IMG/VR virus record: IMGVR_UViG_3300047557_003198 | Location: 1-28,223 of that record | Direction: 5' to 3' (one strand) | DNA: 28,223 bases | DNA from: a virus | In this document: one piece after another, positions 430 through 16,581 of the stretch | Layout: each line of letters begins with the position of its first letter | Numbering within the stretch: the stretch's first letter is position 1 | Made by a program: the position numbers and the translations under genes | Notes under the pieces: model-generated | What the model saw: only the letters and a program-made list of their open reading frames with translations | Told to the model about the DNA's origin: nothing | Databases searched by the model: none

Positions 430-848
430 CTCTCGGCCAGGTGCTGGCGCAGTCGGTGCCACATCGGGGCCGCGTAGTTCCACCGGTCCAGGGGTTCCGC
501 GTCAATCCCGAGCTTGACCAGGTCCAGGGCCTGCTCGCCACGGTACAGCAGCAGCTCGGCCTTGCGCGCGGCCACCGTGCCGGGCGGATGATATTCCACC
601 AGGATAAACGTCGGGCAGTCCATATCCGCGTGCGATACGTGGAAGGCCACCTGATGCGGGCGCAGCTCCACCTTTCGGCCACGGCGCACCACCTTGAGCT
701 CGACGGGCACAAAAATGCCCTCGGGCTTCATTGCGATAAGGCAGTCCGGAATGCCCAGGTTCACCCGGTTTTCAATCCGGGATATACGGCAGTTTTCGAG
801 GTTTTCCCGGACTCGGTTGTACAGGCGGCTCTCCGGCTTCACTGGCAT
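426..848 (-). CDS. VRR-NUC / PD-(D/E)XK family nuclease
   Basis: A 140-residue protein with the layout of phage VRR-NUC-type nucleases, a restriction-endonuclease fold found in Holliday-junction and structure-specific nucleases. The core has GIPD (Asp35), then VPVELKVV with Glu50 and Lys52 as the E-x-K pair, then RPHQ (Gln66) starting the helix that follows in this family. Pro34-Asp35, Glu50 and Lys52 would bind the metal. It begins inside the terminase small subunit gene: GGAG lies 8 nt before the ATG, and the first 77 nt are shared in another frame. Its place next to terminase suggests a role in resolving branched DNA before packaging, which is inference. Fold call good, exact substrate unknown. 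Confidence 0.8.
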   Translation of the reverse strand: MPVKPESRLYNRVRENLENCRISRIENRVNLGIPDCLIAMKPEGIFVPVELKVVRRGRKVELRPHQVAFHVSHADMDCPTFILVEYHPPGTVAARKAELLLYRGEQALDLVKLGIDAEPLDRWNYAAPMWHRLRQHLAES

Positions 849-1518
849 GGGGTTCTCCGTTCTCGGGCGGCCGCTCGTCGGCGCTGTCGTCTTCAGGGTC
901 TTCGGCCGGTGCGGTGTCCGGCAGCTCGGCCAGCTCAGGGTCCGATTCCAACTGTCGGGGCGTGATGTCGATCACAGGGCCCCCGCCCTGGCCATACAGG
1001 CGGCGGATTTCCTCCAGCTTGCGCATGACCTCTTCCTTGGACATGCTGTCGATGGTCCCGTGCCTGATTTCCTTGCGGTCAATGTAGATCGTGCCCAGGG
1101 CCTGCCCTCGGCGGTATTCGGCCTGCACGGCCGCGCCATACGCGCCGGCTTGCAGGGCCTGGTCCCGGATCAACTGCAGGTCCCGCATGTGCCGCTCGTA
1201 CGTGGTCCCGTATTTTTCGCCCAGCTCTTTGCGGCGCTCCTGGATCGCGGCCACGATGTGCGGGTTCAGCTCCGGGTCGGTGAGCTCGCGGGCCCGGTTC
1301 TTCGCCCAGGCCTCGCTGTACCCGGCCCGGATGGCCACCTCGCGCATGTTCAGGCGGCCGTCTTCGGCGCAAAATTCCTCGACGAACTTCCATTCCTGCG
1401 GTGTCAGCAGCCGGGGCTTGTGCGGCTTCACGGGCGCAGTGATCCGGGCCTCGACCACGGCCGGCCGTCCGCCCAGGGTTTTGCCCGCCAAGAACTTGTC
1501 GTCCTTGTTGGTCTTCAT
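772..1518 (-). CDS. terS: Phage terminase small subunit
   Basis: A 248-residue protein recognised as a terminase small subunit, the DNA-recognition part of the packaging motor. A basic N-terminal stretch with PHKPRLLTPQEWKFVEEF leads into a helix-turn-helix-like region (about residues 40 to 75: FCAEDGRLNMREVAIRAGYS and following), which resembles the 'Q..FV..Y......A..AGYS' signature of Terminase_2-type small subunits. The middle is helical and the last 60 residues are acidic and Pro-rich (about 185 to 245), which looks disordered. The start overlaps the preceding stop by one base (TGATG). No large subunit is visible; transcription leaves the left edge, where it would be expected. The 3' end overlaps the nuclease gene by 77 nt. 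Confidence 0.82.
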   Translation of the reverse strand: MKTNKDDKFLAGKTLGGRPAVVEARITAPVKPHKPRLLTPQEWKFVEEFCAEDGRLNMREVAIRAGYSEAWAKNRARELTDPELNPHIVAAIQERRKELGEKYGTTYERHMRDLQLIRDQALQAGAYGAAVQAEYRRGQALGTIYIDRKEIRHGTIDSMSKEEVMRKLEEIRRLYGQGGGPVIDITPRQLESDPELAELPDTAPAEDPEDDSADERPPENGEPHASEAGEPPVQPSPGKPRKLPYIPD

Positions 1519-1742
1519 CAGGCCACCCTCCAGACGCGCCAGCCCTTGTCGGCCTCGCGCCAGCGGATGGAAAAGCGCACCCCGTCGTGCCGCTGGGAAA
1601 ACATCCAGGCGGCGCTGCGGGCGTTCTTGACCTTGTCCGGGTTGGTGATCAGGAAACTATCGCCGACGCGCATGTCATAGAACGGGTACTTCTCCCGTTG
1701 ATGCGTTTTCGGCATGGGCACGTGGCTGTCAATTGTCAACAT
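1518..1742 (-). CDS. Conserved phage protein of the KYPF..M.VGDSF type
   Basis: A 74-residue protein with the pattern KYPFYDMRVGDSF, then NARSAAWMFSQRHDGVRFSIRW and the end WRVWRVA. I recognise this pattern from many small phage and plasmid proteins of unknown function. It ends one base into the terminase start, so the two are probably co-translated. The ATG at 1742 has no Shine-Dalgarno site. A -10-like TATAGT ends only 6 nt upstream, so the message may be leaderless. The alternative ATG at codon 10 also lacks a ribosome site. As first gene of the left-hand unit it may lie at the start of the late (packaging) operon. Confidence 0.7.
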   Translation of the reverse strand: MLTIDSHVPMPKTHQREKYPFYDMRVGDSFLITNPDKVKNARSAAWMFSQRHDGVRFSIRWREADKGWRVWRVA

Positions 1743-1748
1743 GCCCGA

Positions 1749-1778
1749 ACTATACAGGGAAGGGCCGGTTCTCGTCCA
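1749..1778 (-). promoter_or_regulatory. Candidate promoter of the packaging unit
   Basis: On the minus strand TGGACG (1778 to 1773), an 18-nt spacer and TATAGT (1754 to 1749) end 6 nt before the ATG of the first packaging-unit gene. The sequence TTCCCTGTATA around the -10 is repeated 58 nt upstream (1819 to 1809), which suggests a second, weaker start or a regulator site. Confidence 0.35.
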
Positions 1779-1804
1779 GAGTCCCTCACGCCAATTTGCG
1801 AAAT

Positions 1805-1995
1805 CCTATATACAGGGAAAGAATGATTGTGCTTTGAGCGTACAAAAAAAAACGCGCGCGACTTTTATATGAATTACACCATTACACCTCTATAAAACAC
1901 TGTAATCCTATCTAACCTATTGATTCTATTCATCTATTACACTATTACATCTCTTCTGTTCTTATACAAACGCTTATAGCGTATTCATTCTTCCC
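1805..1995. repeat. A+T-rich non-coding region with iteron-like 8-mers
   Basis: Non-coding bases 1743 to 2117 contain about 190 bp that are strikingly A+T-rich for this genome. Two tandem pairs of an 8-mer lie in it: ATTACACC at 1873 and 1881, and ATTACACT/ATTACATC at 1936 and 1944. An inverted copy of the core (TGTAAT) lies at 1901 to 1906. A run of nine A is at 1843 to 1851. No ORF or tRNA is seen. The tandem repeats in an A+T-rich stretch between two opposed units look like a replication origin or a regulatory hub; the sequence alone does not decide. Confidence 0.5.
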
Positions 1996-2093
1996 TAGAA
2001 CCTATTCTGCGCGCCACCGCCGCAATGTGGCCCCTGGTCCGTGGTCCTTGCCCCTCCCACCGTGTCTCCTGCCCCTCTCCCCTTTACGCCTAC

Positions 2094-2106
2094 AACGCAA
2101 TGCGTT
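2094..2106. promoter_or_regulatory. Operator-like palindrome before the plus-strand HNH gene
   Basis: AACGCA-A-TGCGTT is a perfect 6-bp inverted repeat with one central base, ending 11 nt before the ATG at 2118. It could be a repressor site or could sit in the 5' leader of that gene. I see no convincing -10/-35 pair for the plus strand here. Confidence 0.3.
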
Positions 2107-2117
2107 AACATTGCCCC

Positions 2118-2426
2118 ATGAACACCCCTGACCCCCACACCCTTGAGCACATCCGCCACATGTTCGAGTACTCCGATGCCGGCATGGGCGCGTTGATCTG
2201 GCGGCACGGCCGTTATCGAGGCGAGCTCGCGGGCACGCCCATGGGCACCACGGGGGAGTGGCGGGTCCGCCTAGACGGCACCTCGTACTCCTGTGCCAAG
2301 ATCGTGTGGTTCTTGGAGACTGGCTTGTGGCCCGAGGTCCGGCTTCGTCACACGGACAAAGACCGGGACAACATCCGGTTTTCCAACCTGGAAGAGACCA
2401 ACCGCCGGGATGGGCCGGGGCGCTGA
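2118..2426 (+). CDS. HNH-endonuclease-like protein, probably impaired
   Basis: A 102-residue plus-strand protein with the layout of small phage HNH_3-type endonucleases. An N-terminal part (about 10 to 40: MFEYSDAGMGALIW) is followed by G..AGT....G.W.VRLDGTSY..AKIVWFLETG.WPE, and then the degenerate HNH core LRHTDKDRDNIRFSNLEE (about 76 to 93). The usual 'DH' is RH here, so the metal-binding Asp is missing, and the frame ends soon after the core. It could still bind DNA. It is the only plus-strand gene in the left 20 kb and converges on the small-gene chain. No clear ribosome site is seen. Family call fair, activity doubtful. Confidence 0.65.
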   Translation: MNTPDPHTLEHIRHMFEYSDAGMGALIWRHGRYRGELAGTPMGTTGEWRVRLDGTSYSCAKIVWFLETGLWPEVRLRHTDKDRDNIRFSNLEETNRRDGPGR

Positions 2427-3195: not shown

Positions 3196-3493
3196 GGGGG
3201 TCTCCTGTTTTGGGGAGGGCGGGTTTCATGCGTTCTTCGCGTTCCTTGGCCCATGCGTTCAGCTCCTCCACCGTGAACCAGGAGCGGGTGCCGCTGGTGT
3301 CGGGTGACGGCGTGGCCAGGCCGAATACCTTCTGCAGGTGTATCAGGGCGTCGATGGCAAAGCCCAGTTGCGTGTGGTAGCTGCTGCCATGCTGTGCTTC
3401 GGCACGCGCCCGCCACAGGCAGAAGTCCAGGTCGTAGATGGCCTTGCGCATCTCGGCCACGTGCTCTTGAGAGGCAGGGAAGACGGCTGTCAT
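3185..3493 (-). CDS. Phage protein, function unknown
   Basis: A 102-residue protein of unknown function. Residues 1 to 60 are predicted helical (ASQEHVAEMRKAIYDLDFCLWRARAEAQHG, then AIDALIHLQKVFG). The C-terminal part contains WFTVEELNAWAKEREER. The start at 3493 shares ATGA with the stop of the preceding gene; the longer open frame upstream is a shadow of that gene. No domain is recognised and no signal or membrane segment is seen. Confidence 0.6.
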   Translation of the reverse strand: MTAVFPASQEHVAEMRKAIYDLDFCLWRARAEAQHGSSYHTQLGFAIDALIHLQKVFGLATPSPDTSGTRSWFTVEELNAWAKEREERMKPALPKTGDPHAD

Positions 3494-3699
3494 TTGCTGT
3501 CTCCGAAAAGGTCTTGCTGCGCGCCCTCGGTCCGTGGTCCGTGGAGCACGATCATGGCTTTGAGCTCCAGCATCAGGGCTCCGATGGTTCCATAGCACTG
3601 TGCGTGCAGGTCGTTGGCTTCTTGGTAGTTCCTTGTGCCGCGTTGGCACTGGCGCATCACTTTCTCGGCGTCGATCAGTAGGTCGTTGATGTCGGTCAT
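3490..3699 (-). CDS. Small protein with C-terminal sliding-clamp-binding-like motif
   Basis: A 69-residue protein, helical in its first 50 residues (MTDINDLLIDAEKVMRQ and LMLELKAMIVL). Its C-terminus reads AQQDLFGDSK. QQDLF fits the bacterial beta-clamp binding consensus Q-L-(S/D)-L-F, and these motifs usually lie in flexible tails as here. It may bind the host DnaN clamp, either to recruit it or to block it; this is inference from five residues. The end of the gene carries the tandem GGTCCGTGG repeat, which encodes the HGPR stretch just before the motif. The start is one base behind the preceding stop. Confidence 0.6.
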   Translation of the reverse strand: MTDINDLLIDAEKVMRQCQRGTRNYQEANDLHAQCYGTIGALMLELKAMIVLHGPRTEGAQQDLFGDSK

Positions 3700-11485: not shown

Positions 11486-11721
11486 TTGAACATCTCAGCA
11501 ATGGCCGCGACCAGCATCGACAAGCCGATGAGGTACAACACGTACACCTGGGGACTGGGGCCGTACTCATGCGGGCGCTTGCCCAGCAGGATCGACTGCA
11601 TGCGTTCCTCCTCGCGACCGAGCTGGCGCGGGGGCCGTTGATACTGCAGCCCGATGAGGACCTTGCCGGTGTTGACATAGCGGCCCGAGGCGGCCAGCTT
11701 CTTGTAGAGGTCGGGTTTCAA
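11482..11721 (-). CDS. Small membrane protein with a C-terminal helix
   Basis: A 79-residue protein. The first 55 residues are polar and basic, and a single likely membrane helix lies at about 58 to 77 (VYVLYLIGLSMLVAAIAEMF), so it is probably a tail-anchored inner-membrane protein. The start is an unusual TTG at 11721, supported by GAGGAG 8 nt upstream and by the TTGA overlap with the preceding stop. Function unknown. Confidence 0.6.
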   Translation of the reverse strand: MKPDLYKKLAASGRYVNTGKVLIGLQYQRPPRQLGREEERMQSILLGKRPHEYGPSPQVYVLYLIGLSMLVAAIAEMFK

Positions 11722-11870
11722 AACGGGGCCTCCTCGTAGTCTTCGAGGTCAACCCCCTTCTTGGCCTTCTTGCGCAGTTCCTTGGGCATGAGCTCGGCAG
11801 GCATGACCCAACGGGTACCATCCCACTGAGGGAAGGGCCAGGGGTACGGAAGTAGTGGTTCAGTCTTCAC
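11718..11870 (-). CDS. 50-residue protein behind an internal promoter
   Basis: A short protein. It opens with KTEPLLPYPWPFPQWDG, rich in Pro and Trp, and has a basic stretch (KELRKKAKKG) followed by an acidic tail (DLEDYEEAPF). The start is the GTG at 11870, fixed by AGAAAGGAGAAA 4 nt upstream. It overlaps the previous gene by 11 nt and the next by 4. Function unknown; the charged-tail architecture would suit a small binding protein. Confidence 0.62.
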   Translation of the reverse strand: MKTEPLLPYPWPFPQWDGTRWVMPAELMPKELRKKAKKGVDLEDYEEAPF

Positions 11871-13174: not shown

Positions 13175-15052
13175 TTATGCAGCCTCACCCCAGCTTGGAC
13201 CAACTTCCACGTCCACGCGCGAGGGCACTTCCAGTGTCACCGCGTTGGCCATGATCCGTGATGCTTCGACCGCCTCGTCCCGATCCCGGACCGAGAGCGC
13301 GATCTCGTCGTGCACCTGCAGCCGGATGTCGAACCCGGCCTTGGCCAGCGCCACCATGCCCGCCTTGGTCTGGTCGGCGGCCGAGCCCTGGATGAGCCGG
13401 TTCAGGCCCTTGTAGGTGCCCGCCCGCTTGATGCGTCGGCCGTATTCGATGATGGCCTGCTCGTAGGGCAGCGCCTTGTTCACGCCCCACTCCACAGGCT
13501 CCCACAGCGGGAAGCGGCATTTGCGGCCCAGCAGCGTGCGGATCGCGCCGCCCGAGGCCGGGTGCTCGATGCGCTTCATCACCGCGTCCACCGTGCCGCG
13601 CAGGAACGGGACCTTCTGGTGGAAGGTGGCGATCAGCTCGCTGGCCTCGTCCAGGGGCAGCTCCAGGCTGTTGGCGAGCTTCTGTTTGCCCATGCCGTAC
13701 ATCAGGCCCAGGCCGATGGTCTTGGCAGCCTTGCGCTTAATGCCGGCCATGTCCGCGACCATCTGGTGGAAGTCGGTATTGGGGTCATCCCTATACGCCT
13801 GGGCCATCTTTTCAGCCCCCGGCAGGTCCAGCAGCGTGGCATAGTGGACCAGCAATCGCGGTTCCTGCGAGGAGAAGTCGTTTGCCGCCCAAAGCTGGCC
13901 CTCCTCCGGCAGGAACAGGCCCCGCACCAGCGGCCCGATCACCTCGTGGCGCGCGGGCACCTGCTGCAGGTTGGGGTTGGCAGCCGACAGGCGTCCTGTG
14001 ACCGTGCCGCCGTCCTCGTTGCGCATCTGGTTGAAGTGGGTGTGGATGCGCCCATCGGCCGCGCTGTGCTTGAGGTAGGGCTCCAGGAAGGTGCCGTGGG
14101 TCTTGTTCAGCTCACGGGCCTCCACGATCATCTTGGCCATCGGATGGTCGTGGGTGTCCAGGAAGCTCTTGGTAAAGCTGGGCGCGCCCTGCGCGGTCCG
14201 TGGGTACTGGATCGAGAGCTTGTCGAAGGCCTGCGCGATGCTGGCGGCGGCCCAGATGTCCACCTTCACGCCGGCCTGGTTCTTGATGTACTTGAGGATG
14301 TCCTGCTCCTTGCGACGCATCTCCTCCACCTGGCGCTCGCACTCCTCGCGGTTGAAGCGAATGCCCTTGAGCGTGATGTCCACCAGCACCGGCAGCACTT
14401 CGGTTTCCAGCTCGAAGATCGACTGCACCTCGTCGCGCTGCAGCAGGGCCTTGAAGTGGTGCCAGAGCTTGAGCGTGAGCGCCGCGTCCTGCTCGGCGTA
14501 CTCGCCCACGTGCATGGCCGGCAGCTTCCACAGCTCCTTTTTCGGGTGCACACCGAAGTCCGAGGCGGACTCCTTGAGACCCTGCTCCGACTTCACCTCC
14601 TTGAGGTAGTCGAAGCCCAGGCTGTTCAGGGCGAAGCTGAAGCGGTTCTCGTCCAGCAGGGGCGCTGCCAGCATGGTATCGAAGATGCGGCCGTTTACCT
14701 CGAAGCCGGAGGCTCTGAGCCACCCGAGGTCGTAGGCGGCGTTGTGCATGATCTTGTCAGCCGGCGTCGCCAATACCTCGCGAATCCAACGCTCGACAAT
14801 GCGCTTGTCCAGATTGCCGCCACCACCGTGAGCAACAGGAAAGTAGCCAGCCCAGCCATCAACAGCAACGGCATAGCCAACAATGTAGCCATCGTTCCGA
14901 GGCCAGCCCGGCCCCATGGTCTCCATGTTGGGGTCGCAGGTTTCGAGGTCAATTGCAATCTCCTTAGCTGTGGACAAGTTGGGGAAAATCTGTGGAGGAA
15001 CCCACTCGGATACCCGGGGGAACATGGACATGGTCCGTGTGTCGCGCTTCAT
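13175..15052 (-). CDS. polA: Family A DNA polymerase with 3'-5' exonuclease
   Basis: A 625-residue replicative polymerase of the Pol I family without the 5' nuclease domain. Exonuclease motifs: DLE (Asp35, Glu37), NAAYD (Asp108), YAEQD (Tyr185, Asp189). Polymerase: TGRLSAANPNLQQVPAR (352 to 368); motif A with Asp392 in NDFSSQEPR; motif B R440-K-A-A-K444-T-I-G-L448-G-L-M-Y452; motif C QVHDE (His581, Asp582, Glu583). All catalytic residues are present. Leu448 sits where E. coli Pol I has Phe762. The start shares ATGA with the helicase stop, so the two are coupled. It would copy the phage genome with the primase and helicases of the same cluster. Confidence 0.95.
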   Translation of the reverse strand: MKRDTRTMSMFPRVSEWVPPQIFPNLSTAKEIAIDLETCDPNMETMGPGWPRNDGYIVGYAVAVDGWAGYFPVAHGGGGNLDKRIVERWIREVLATPADKIMHNAAYDLGWLRASGFEVNGRIFDTMLAAPLLDENRFSFALNSLGFDYLKEVKSEQGLKESASDFGVHPKKELWKLPAMHVGEYAEQDAALTLKLWHHFKALLQRDEVQSIFELETEVLPVLVDITLKGIRFNREECERQVEEMRRKEQDILKYIKNQAGVKVDIWAAASIAQAFDKLSIQYPRTAQGAPSFTKSFLDTHDHPMAKMIVEARELNKTHGTFLEPYLKHSAADGRIHTHFNQMRNEDGGTVTGRLSAANPNLQQVPARHEVIGPLVRGLFLPEEGQLWAANDFSSQEPRLLVHYATLLDLPGAEKMAQAYRDDPNTDFHQMVADMAGIKRKAAKTIGLGLMYGMGKQKLANSLELPLDEASELIATFHQKVPFLRGTVDAVMKRIEHPASGGAIRTLLGRKCRFPLWEPVEWGVNKALPYEQAIIEYGRRIKRAGTYKGLNRLIQGSAADQTKAGMVALAKAGFDIRLQVHDEIALSVRDRDEAVEASRIMANAVTLEVPSRVDVEVGPSWGEAA

Positions 15053-16581
15053 AGTCGGAAGCCTTTCTGTTCATTCTTGGGAAGCACGATGTGCAGGGAC
15101 TGCTTTGCACGGGTGATGCCCACGTACAGCAGCCGGTTGATGTCGTCGGAGTTGCGCTCGTAGTCCTTGGCGAACTTGGTCGTCAGGTCCGCCAGCAGCA
15201 GCACGTTGTCGGCCTCGCCACCCTTGGCTCCGTGGATCGTGGAGAGCTTGATCGGGGCCTTGCCATTGAGCTTCACGCCCCGGCGCAGCAGCGAGATGAT
15301 GTAGTGGCGCTTGTCCTCGGCGATCTTGGTCAGGGCCTCGTGCCAGATTTCTGTAGAAAGAAGTCCGTGCTTTTCTTTCAGGAGATCGATGGTGTACAGC
15401 GCCCCAGGGTCGGCCGTCTTCAGGCCCTTGTGGCCGTGCTTGACGCAGTCGGTGTCCATGTACTTGTAGATGGCCTTGACCACCTCGAAGGGCACCTCGC
15501 CGCCCTTGCGCAGCCGCTCCCAGCCGAGCACGGCAGTGAGCACTGCCTCGGGCACGGACCGTTGGCCGTGGCGCTCGAACAAGAGCCCCTGGCTCTTCAA
15601 CCAGTCGTGCATGTCGGTGAGCATGTAGTTGGCCGCAGCCAGCACCAGCCACTCGCCATGGGAGACGTCCACGTGGTGCCAGTCGTTGTAGTACTCCACC
15701 ACGCCGGTCTCTTCGCGCGCCTTCCAGACCTTGGGCTGGCGCTTGCGGATGCGGCGCACCACGTTGTTGGCCAGGGCATGCACCTTGGCCGGCACGCGGT
15801 AGGACTGGTCCAGCACCTTGATCTCGCCTTCGAAGCTCAGGAAGCTGTCCACGTCGGCTCCTGCCCAGGTGTAGACGGCCTGGTCGTCGTCGCCTGCCAA
15901 AAACGAACGCTGGGAGCGCAGTGCCAACTGCTCAACCAGCCTCCATTGCAAACGTGAGAGGTCCTGCGCCTCGTCGATGATGAGAACGTCGAGCCGGGGC
16001 AGGCGGTCTGGCTCCAAGAGCACCTGCTCCAGGAGGTCAGTGAAGTCCAGCAGGTTGCGCGACTGCTTGTAGTGCCGGTAGGCGCGTTCCACGTACTCGA
16101 AGTGGAACCACTCCAGCTCCATGGCGGACTGATTGTAGTGGGTCTTCAGGTCCAGGCCCTTGATCCGTGCGATGTTGATCTCGTTGAGGATGGGGTTGTC
16201 CGCCTGCACCATGAAGTCGTCTTCGCCCTGGCCAACGCTGATCTCGATGCCGGCCTCCAGCGCAAACTCGCGGTAGTGCTCTGGCGTCATCATGTCTTTC
16301 GTGCCGATGCCAAGGCACCGGTAGGCCAGGCTGTGCAGCGTGCGAAACCACGGGAAGTCGCTGTCGGGGCGCAGTTGCGGGAACTTGGCCACGGCGCGGT
16401 CGCGTGCTTCGGTTGCGGCCTTCTTGGTGAAGGAGAAGTAGCCGATCTTGGTGGGGTGCACGTTGTCGGCGAGCTCCATCTCGACGACGTTGAGCAGGAA
16501 GGTAGTTTTGCCGCTGCCTGGTTAAGGGGGGCCGAAGACTTTGACGATCTTCGGCCCCATCTCCTTGTCAGATGTGTTCAT
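15049..16581 (-). CDS. UvrD/Rep-type SF1 helicase, interrupted at Walker A by TAA
   Basis: The ATG at 16581 opens with 19 codons ending VKVFGPP. Codon 20 (16522 to 16524) is TAA, and the same frame resumes at once with PGSGKTTFLL. Removing six bases gives GPPGSGKT, a perfect Walker A. The rest is intact: FTKKAA (Ia), DEAQDLS (about 203 to 209), GDDDQAVYTW (III), QSYRVP (IV), STIHGAKGGEADN (V), VGITRAKQS (VI), so a full SF1A 3'-5' DNA helicase is present except for this site. Translation from the next ATG (16479) would lack the ATP-binding loop and has no ribosome site. The gene may be broken, rescued, or misassembled. It overlaps the HNH gene by 14 nt and the polymerase by 4. Confidence 0.85.
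16528..16558. other. Perfect 11-bp hairpin beside the helicase stop
   Basis: GGGGCCGAAGA and TCTTCGGCCCC face each other across a 9-nt loop. The stem ends three bases from the TAA codon and encodes the GPK and FGP residues flanking the start of the P-loop. No T run follows, so it is not a typical terminator. Confidence 0.7.

Follow-up and report, generated by a model that had tools for sequence, protein, structure and literature searches.

The gap at positions 1743-2117 of the window (the whole stretch of DNA analyzed, a 28,223-base IMG/VR virus record) raises the question of what function is served by an isolated A+T-rich interval in a G+C-rich phage genome. The window has a mean GC content of 62%, and its 150-bp minimum (31%, at 1840-1989) falls within the gap, versus 44% for the next lowest value elsewhere, which bears out the view of the initial annotation that the gap stands alone. 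The same annotation called the entire gap A+T-rich, a description that fits the middle (1816-1995, 34% GC) but not the right third (1996-2117, 62% GC), the gap as a whole having 47% GC. It also placed the gap exactly where the small genes stop and the packaging genes begin; small genes do lie on one side and terS on the other, but the direct borders are a plus-strand HNH endonuclease gene and the 74-aa gene p74. In complete relatives, the gap is the junction of the early and late modules.

Gene order in the window, mostly leftward, is PolA, a UvrD-like helicase, an AEP-type primase, a Pam3-gp34-like protein and many small genes, followed by the HNH gene (2118-2426, plus strand, 102 aa; PHROG 99, with HNH_3 just under the cut-off), the gap, p74 (1518-1742, minus strand; PHROG 10287, with a weak match to Pfam DUF7303) and terS (772-1518, minus strand). 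The closest annotated relatives are the lake phage DSL-LC04 and the Pelagibacter phages HTVC023P and HTVC027P. Relatives of p74 adjoin most copies of the element described below, and the HNH gene adjoins a minority (54 of 177). In two phage contigs (L102 and L170) the p74 gene is doubled, the copies lying about 6.5 kb apart. The terS product, a small terminase subunit of 248 aa (PHROG 51, E 5e-10; Pfam Terminase_2 at the cut-off), has a helix-turn-helix (HTH) at about residues 38-82, and its profile matches solved SF6/SPP1-type TerS structures (4zc3, 3zqp, 2cmp); in the AlphaFold model the HTH region has a pLDDT of about 90 and a fold match to 4zc3 (TMt 0.88). By family profile and modelled HTH fold, the TerS of the window is of the Terminase_2, SF6/SPP1 type.

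The middle of the gap is occupied by a compact element. Two tandem pairs of 8-mers on the plus strand, ATTACACC ATTACACC (1873-1888) and ATTACACT ATTACATC (1936-1951), begin 63 nt apart, with an inverted copy of the repeat core between them (plus-strand TGTAAT, 1901-1906, minus strand), and are preceded by an A-tract (1844-1860, plus strand) that consists of nine A (1844-1852) and CGCGCGCG (1853-1860). The pairs, the inverted copy and the nine-A run had all been reported by the initial annotation, as had two copies of TTCCCTGTATA, which are found on the minus strand (TATACAGGGAA at 1751-1761 and 1809-1819); the first of these overlaps a conserved promoter, and the second has no counterpart in relatives such as L003. 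A 14-nt core pattern occurs twice in the window versus 0.05 times expected, a count of two being reached by 0 of 100 shuffles. The observation of the initial annotation was correct but understated, as three features had been overlooked: an IHF-type site, a long interrupted inverted repeat and a promoter for p74 and terS. The IHF-type site, TAACCTATTGATT (YAANNNNTTGATW, 1913-1925, minus strand), matches the consensus and lies between the two repeat pairs. The inverted repeat encloses the core with a left arm (1816-1841) and a right arm (1970-1995) of 26 nt each, both given on the plus strand and pairing at 20 of 26 positions. These arms are the top-ranked interrupted inverted repeat of the whole window, but within the gap alone the result is marginal (1 of 100 block shuffles was equally good), so that support for the repeat rests on its genome-wide rank and on the relatives.

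The predicted promoter (TGGACG - 18 nt - TATAGT, 1778-1749, minus strand), found by a consensus scan, has its -10 hexamer 6 nt ahead of the p74 ATG, and the p74-terS transcript expected from it is probably near-leaderless. Among 35 distinct upstream regions of relatives, TANNNT is equally placed in 29 and a CTGGAC/CTTGGC-type box is present at -39/-40 in most; these conserved sigma-70 -35 and -10 hexamers before p74 probably constitute the p74-terS promoter.

Relatives of the element were collected from 73 viral loci via relatives of p74 and from 120 stretches via a 15-mer scan, many of them redundant; about 17 of the 120 matches from the 15-mer scan have neither the element nor TerS and look like chance. 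The initial annotation had let its proposal depend on conservation of the repeats in near relatives, and both the repeats and their layout are conserved in relatives near and distant, from lakes and sea. A core profile detects one element per locus in about 180 (partly redundant) loci and two only in L131, and none of 30 larger records has more than one place that matches the pattern, except G019, where a repeat is doubled, and L131 (G030) with its two copies. The elements of L131 are oppositely oriented and separated by 3.4 kb (27-129 and 3466-3580); the left motif of the second is different, and the pair may reflect a recombinant phage or a chimeric assembly. Relative to the element, TerS keeps one side and one strand in 167 of the 168 loci in which TerS was found. 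A search of the element DNA against annotated phages gave no significant match, no earlier description of the element was found in the literature, and the genome papers that were checked mention neither a packaging site nor an origin.

The layout is more constant than the letters. Among 60 dereplicated cores, an exact IHF consensus is present in 36 (versus 0.6% of shuffles); forward half-sites average 1.2 to the left and 2.2 to the right of the core midpoint near the bend site, and reverse half-sites 1.67 and 0.07, so that inverted copies are essentially confined to the left. Most relatives, psg01 and HTVC027P among them, also have the CG run and T/A-tracts, which are absent in a few (the second copy of L131, L062 and L063). 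The letters of repeats and arms vary (ATTACACC, TTACACC-ATTACGTC, TGTGCCAAG, ATTGTAACAC) within this arrangement. The element of psg01 (MW574966, 13639-13861) contains TGTGCCAAG pairs at a distance of 83 bp, together with CGCGCGCG, TGGCACA in inverted orientation, A/T tracts, arms matching at 20 of 25 positions and a poor IHF-like site; that of HTVC027P (14735-14960) combines repeats of the ATTGTAACAC type with CGCG, an exact match to the IHF consensus (TATCAATAGTTTA) and weak arms of 23 nt; and that of HTVC023P (11622-11842) has TTTTCCTAG repeats and 27-nt arms. In HTVC027P (MN698241, terS at 15254-15944) and psg01 (terS at 14383-14916), terS runs opposite to the other genes, and the element keeps its place and direction, now at the 3' side of terS. 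The seemingly long gaps upstream of the flipped terS genes are largely coding sequence for a VRR-type nuclease, as judged by eye.

Comparison of the arms indicates that the two arms of one genome change in concert at the DNA level. Across 39 dereplicated elements, the mean matching score is 17.4 for arms within a genome versus 10.9 for arms of different genomes (permutation p<=5e-5), although some elements, including those of HTVC027P, L013 and L111, are individually not above the between-genome level. A distance of 11.0 +- 1.0 bp separates the arm axis from the centre of the IHF-type site (86 elements, redundant). In DSL-LC04, the arms of the element, in a 36-nt form, rank first among interrupted inverted repeats genome-wide, and the top-scoring such repeat of psg01 likewise marks the psg01 element; the two arms match at 43 of 44 positions in L314 and at 46 of 52 in L308. 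In an independent set of 54 loci, selected solely for TerS similarity, arms with a score of 22 or more are present upstream of terS in 33 loci, versus 0 of 54 downstream and 0 of 54 composition-matched, block-shuffled upstream regions (Wilcoxon 6e-10). The concerted change may be due to paired protein sites, to use as a hairpin or cruciform, or to conversion between arms, and it presents a genuine problem of mechanism for packaging and origin sites alike.

Partial Mantel tests of element distance against protein distances (21-26 genomes) rank the TerS HTH first among the covariates of element divergence. Element distance tracks that of the TerS HTH after control for each of nine proteins or segments (PolA, helicase, primase, DUF7307, HepA, nuclease, p74, VRR and the TerS C-part; p 0.002-0.012), the last a weakened control because it is very conserved; with gp34 as the control, the same test gives p 0.054. 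None of the control proteins (PolA, helicase, primase, HepA and others) adds to the correlation once the TerS HTH is given (p>0.1). The equally adjacent p74 correlates almost as well (0.51 versus 0.53 for the TerS HTH), and the covariation may partly be linkage because TerS and the element are neighbours. Where TerS is only 25-35% identical (psg01, HTVC027P, HTVC023P), the letters of the repeats differ and the layout is kept.

The initial annotation proposed a replication origin or late control region; the gap does contain the predicted p74-terS promoter, and an origin is a possibility of lesser standing, but a packaging site is favoured. The element may well be the packaging-initiation cis-site (pac/cosB-type) of an SF6/SPP1-type small terminase, beside the p74-terS promoter, a reading given a probability of roughly one half because the divergence of the element follows the TerS HTH better than any replication protein tested. 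Host IHF (or HU) would bind at 1913-1925 and sharply bend the DNA, bringing the left repeats (direct pair and inverted copy) together with the right direct pair; the HTH domains of a TerS oligomer would bind the repeats thus joined, and the looped complex would recruit the large terminase for the first cut on the concatemer. The arms, held in register with the bend site, would probably act either as a second identical pair of binding sites or as a cruciform or hairpin. More tentatively, the element may represent a new site architecture for packaging or packaging-coupled replication, combining an IHF-bent core, TerS repeats and long inverted arms that serve as a hairpin or second synaptic pair for concatemer processing, the arms being alike within each genome and drifting freely between genomes. 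To our knowledge, known pac and cos sites are without such long arms. Contig ends fall near the element somewhat in excess (16 versus 9.4 expected) in a sample ascertained by the search pattern, but they are spread over many positions and reveal no fixed terminus at the element. The packaging reading is weakened by the flipped terS genes of HTVC027P and psg01, which have the element at their 3' side. A recognisable cis-site would give direct access to the start and the cutting of these genomes, and the cultured pair HTVC027P/HTCC1062 allows the site to be tested.

A replication origin is the strongest of the other explanations, though a doubtful one. An initiator (perhaps the AEP primase, a helicase or an unknown early protein) would bind the repeats as iterons, IHF would bend the DNA, the A/T tracts would melt, and hairpins formed by the arms would serve primer synthesis or helicase loading. 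Iterons, an IHF-type site and A/T tracts typify classical origins such as lambda ori, pSC101 and P4 ori/crr, and the element has all three, at the place in the window with by far the highest A+T content; unlike in those origins, the repeats, with an inverted copy among them, flank the bend site, and the element is tied to terS rather than to a replication gene, with no change in skew. In the complete relative DSL-LC04, GC skew simply tracks the coding strand and the element is without the skew shift that the initial annotation envisaged, an absence that counts against an origin but is compatible with one. The primase gene is some 15 kb from the element in the window, whereas terS is always adjacent, and element distance does not follow PolA, primase, helicase or HepA once the TerS HTH is given. 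Phages with related AEP-type primases (29-31% identity: Acinetobacter JeffCo, DMU1 and pB23, Salmonella PMBT28 and Providencia Kokobel2) have arrays of short repeats in the gap that immediately precedes the primase gene, with inverted arms around the array in JeffCo (16/17) and Kokobel2 (18/18); these repeat-plus-arm gaps fit an origin better and therefore weaken the packaging reading, but the arrays have neither the IHF consensus nor sequence similarity to the element. The same phages have a second repeat gap at another place, which in the Acinetobacter phages is ahead of terS, and the TerS proteins of DMU1, PMBT28 and Kokobel2 are also weakly Terminase_2, so that they do not cleanly separate origin from packaging. 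Packaging is favoured over an origin because the element is linked to terS, has its repeats arranged around an IHF-type site and covaries with the DNA-binding domain of TerS. Siphophages with AEP-type primases have two gaps each (L261, 20594-20808 and 42785-43090; L262, 14125-14287 and 39133-39361; L264, 20777-21230 and 43016-13) that share a repeat (GGTAAC, TGGAACC, AACCGAGC) and also contain a hairpin of the TTGTC-GACAA type and terminators, with clear inverted arms in some (JeffCo, Kokobel2); these gaps resemble paired origins or control sites at operon boundaries. No element was found in CRP-901/902, which have a different replication module; as a natural experiment they are uninformative on Terminase_2 packaging, as their TerS matches another family, GP3_package. 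The CRP-901 TerS (OQ401623 gp77) is reported to be homologous to that of HTVC023P (PMC10149686), but its Pfam match, below the cut-off, is to GP3_package and not to Terminase_2.

Control of the late operon is an unlikely function, in which the repeats would be operators or activator sites for a phage regulator and IHF would assist looping to the promoter at 1749-1778. The conserved promoter 40-100 bp left of the arm and the position at the early/late junction in complete relatives agree with such a role; however, the IHF-type site lies between the repeat clusters and not between the clusters and the promoter, the element stays in HTVC027P and psg01 where the inverted terS is unreadable from the element side, and long co-varying arms are unexpected for an operator. 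A structured RNA made from the gap, with the arms as its closing stem, is very improbable. Single-strand folding beats shuffles for the window element (plus strand, z -2.9) and far more so for that of DSL-LC04 (as RNA, minus strand, z -6.4), but the fold as DNA is equally improved because the arms are complementary, and the conserved inner letters are direct repeats, a DNA-binding pattern. An RNA stem was rejected on the grounds that arm mismatches have no G-U bias on either strand (98 versus 102 of 493, the rest being transversions) and that there is no Rfam match.

The preferred reading, a packaging-initiation site, has counterparts in other phages. The cosB site of lambda is arranged as R3 - IHF - R2, R1 with R2 inverted (PMC4669245), and resembles the element in that repeats, one of them inverted, flank an IHF site just upstream of terS and are bound by TerS in lambda (PMC4669245). 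The element differs in having short tandem 8-mers in place of the 16-bp R sequences, no recognised cosN or cosQ, long inverted arms around the core, and a TerS of the SF6/SPP1 Terminase_2 type rather than gpNu1. The pac site (HEX4 - IHF - HEX3, 161 bp) of P1, a phage with terminally redundant DNA, has repeats bound by the small packaging subunit and likewise has two clusters of short repeats around an IHF site within about 160 bp (PMC10028697), but it is located inside pacA and not in an intergenic region, and its repeats are Dam-methylation sites (TGATCA/G), whereas those of the element are without GATC and are accompanied by long arms. The TerS of the window matches solved TerS of the SF6/SPP1 type, and in SPP1 several TerS contact points flank the pac cut; the IHF-centred layout, tandem pairs and inverted arms were not found in the parts of the SPP1/SF6 account compared here, by description (PMC9611059). 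The layout appears to be that of lambda cosB and P1 pac and would work alike in the preferred reading, as an analogy and not as membership of either class. Long co-varying arms are part of neither site, and by its sequence the element may be a known layout, repeats around IHF, to which such arms have been added as a new feature.

Intergenic stretches of the window and its relatives also contain heptad-like GGTCCGTGGTCCTTG (GTCC[GT]TG) repeats, which are found at 2036-2050 of the window, in L207 and to the right of the element in many relatives, and HTVC027P has a comparable low-complexity repeat of the GCTTG type.
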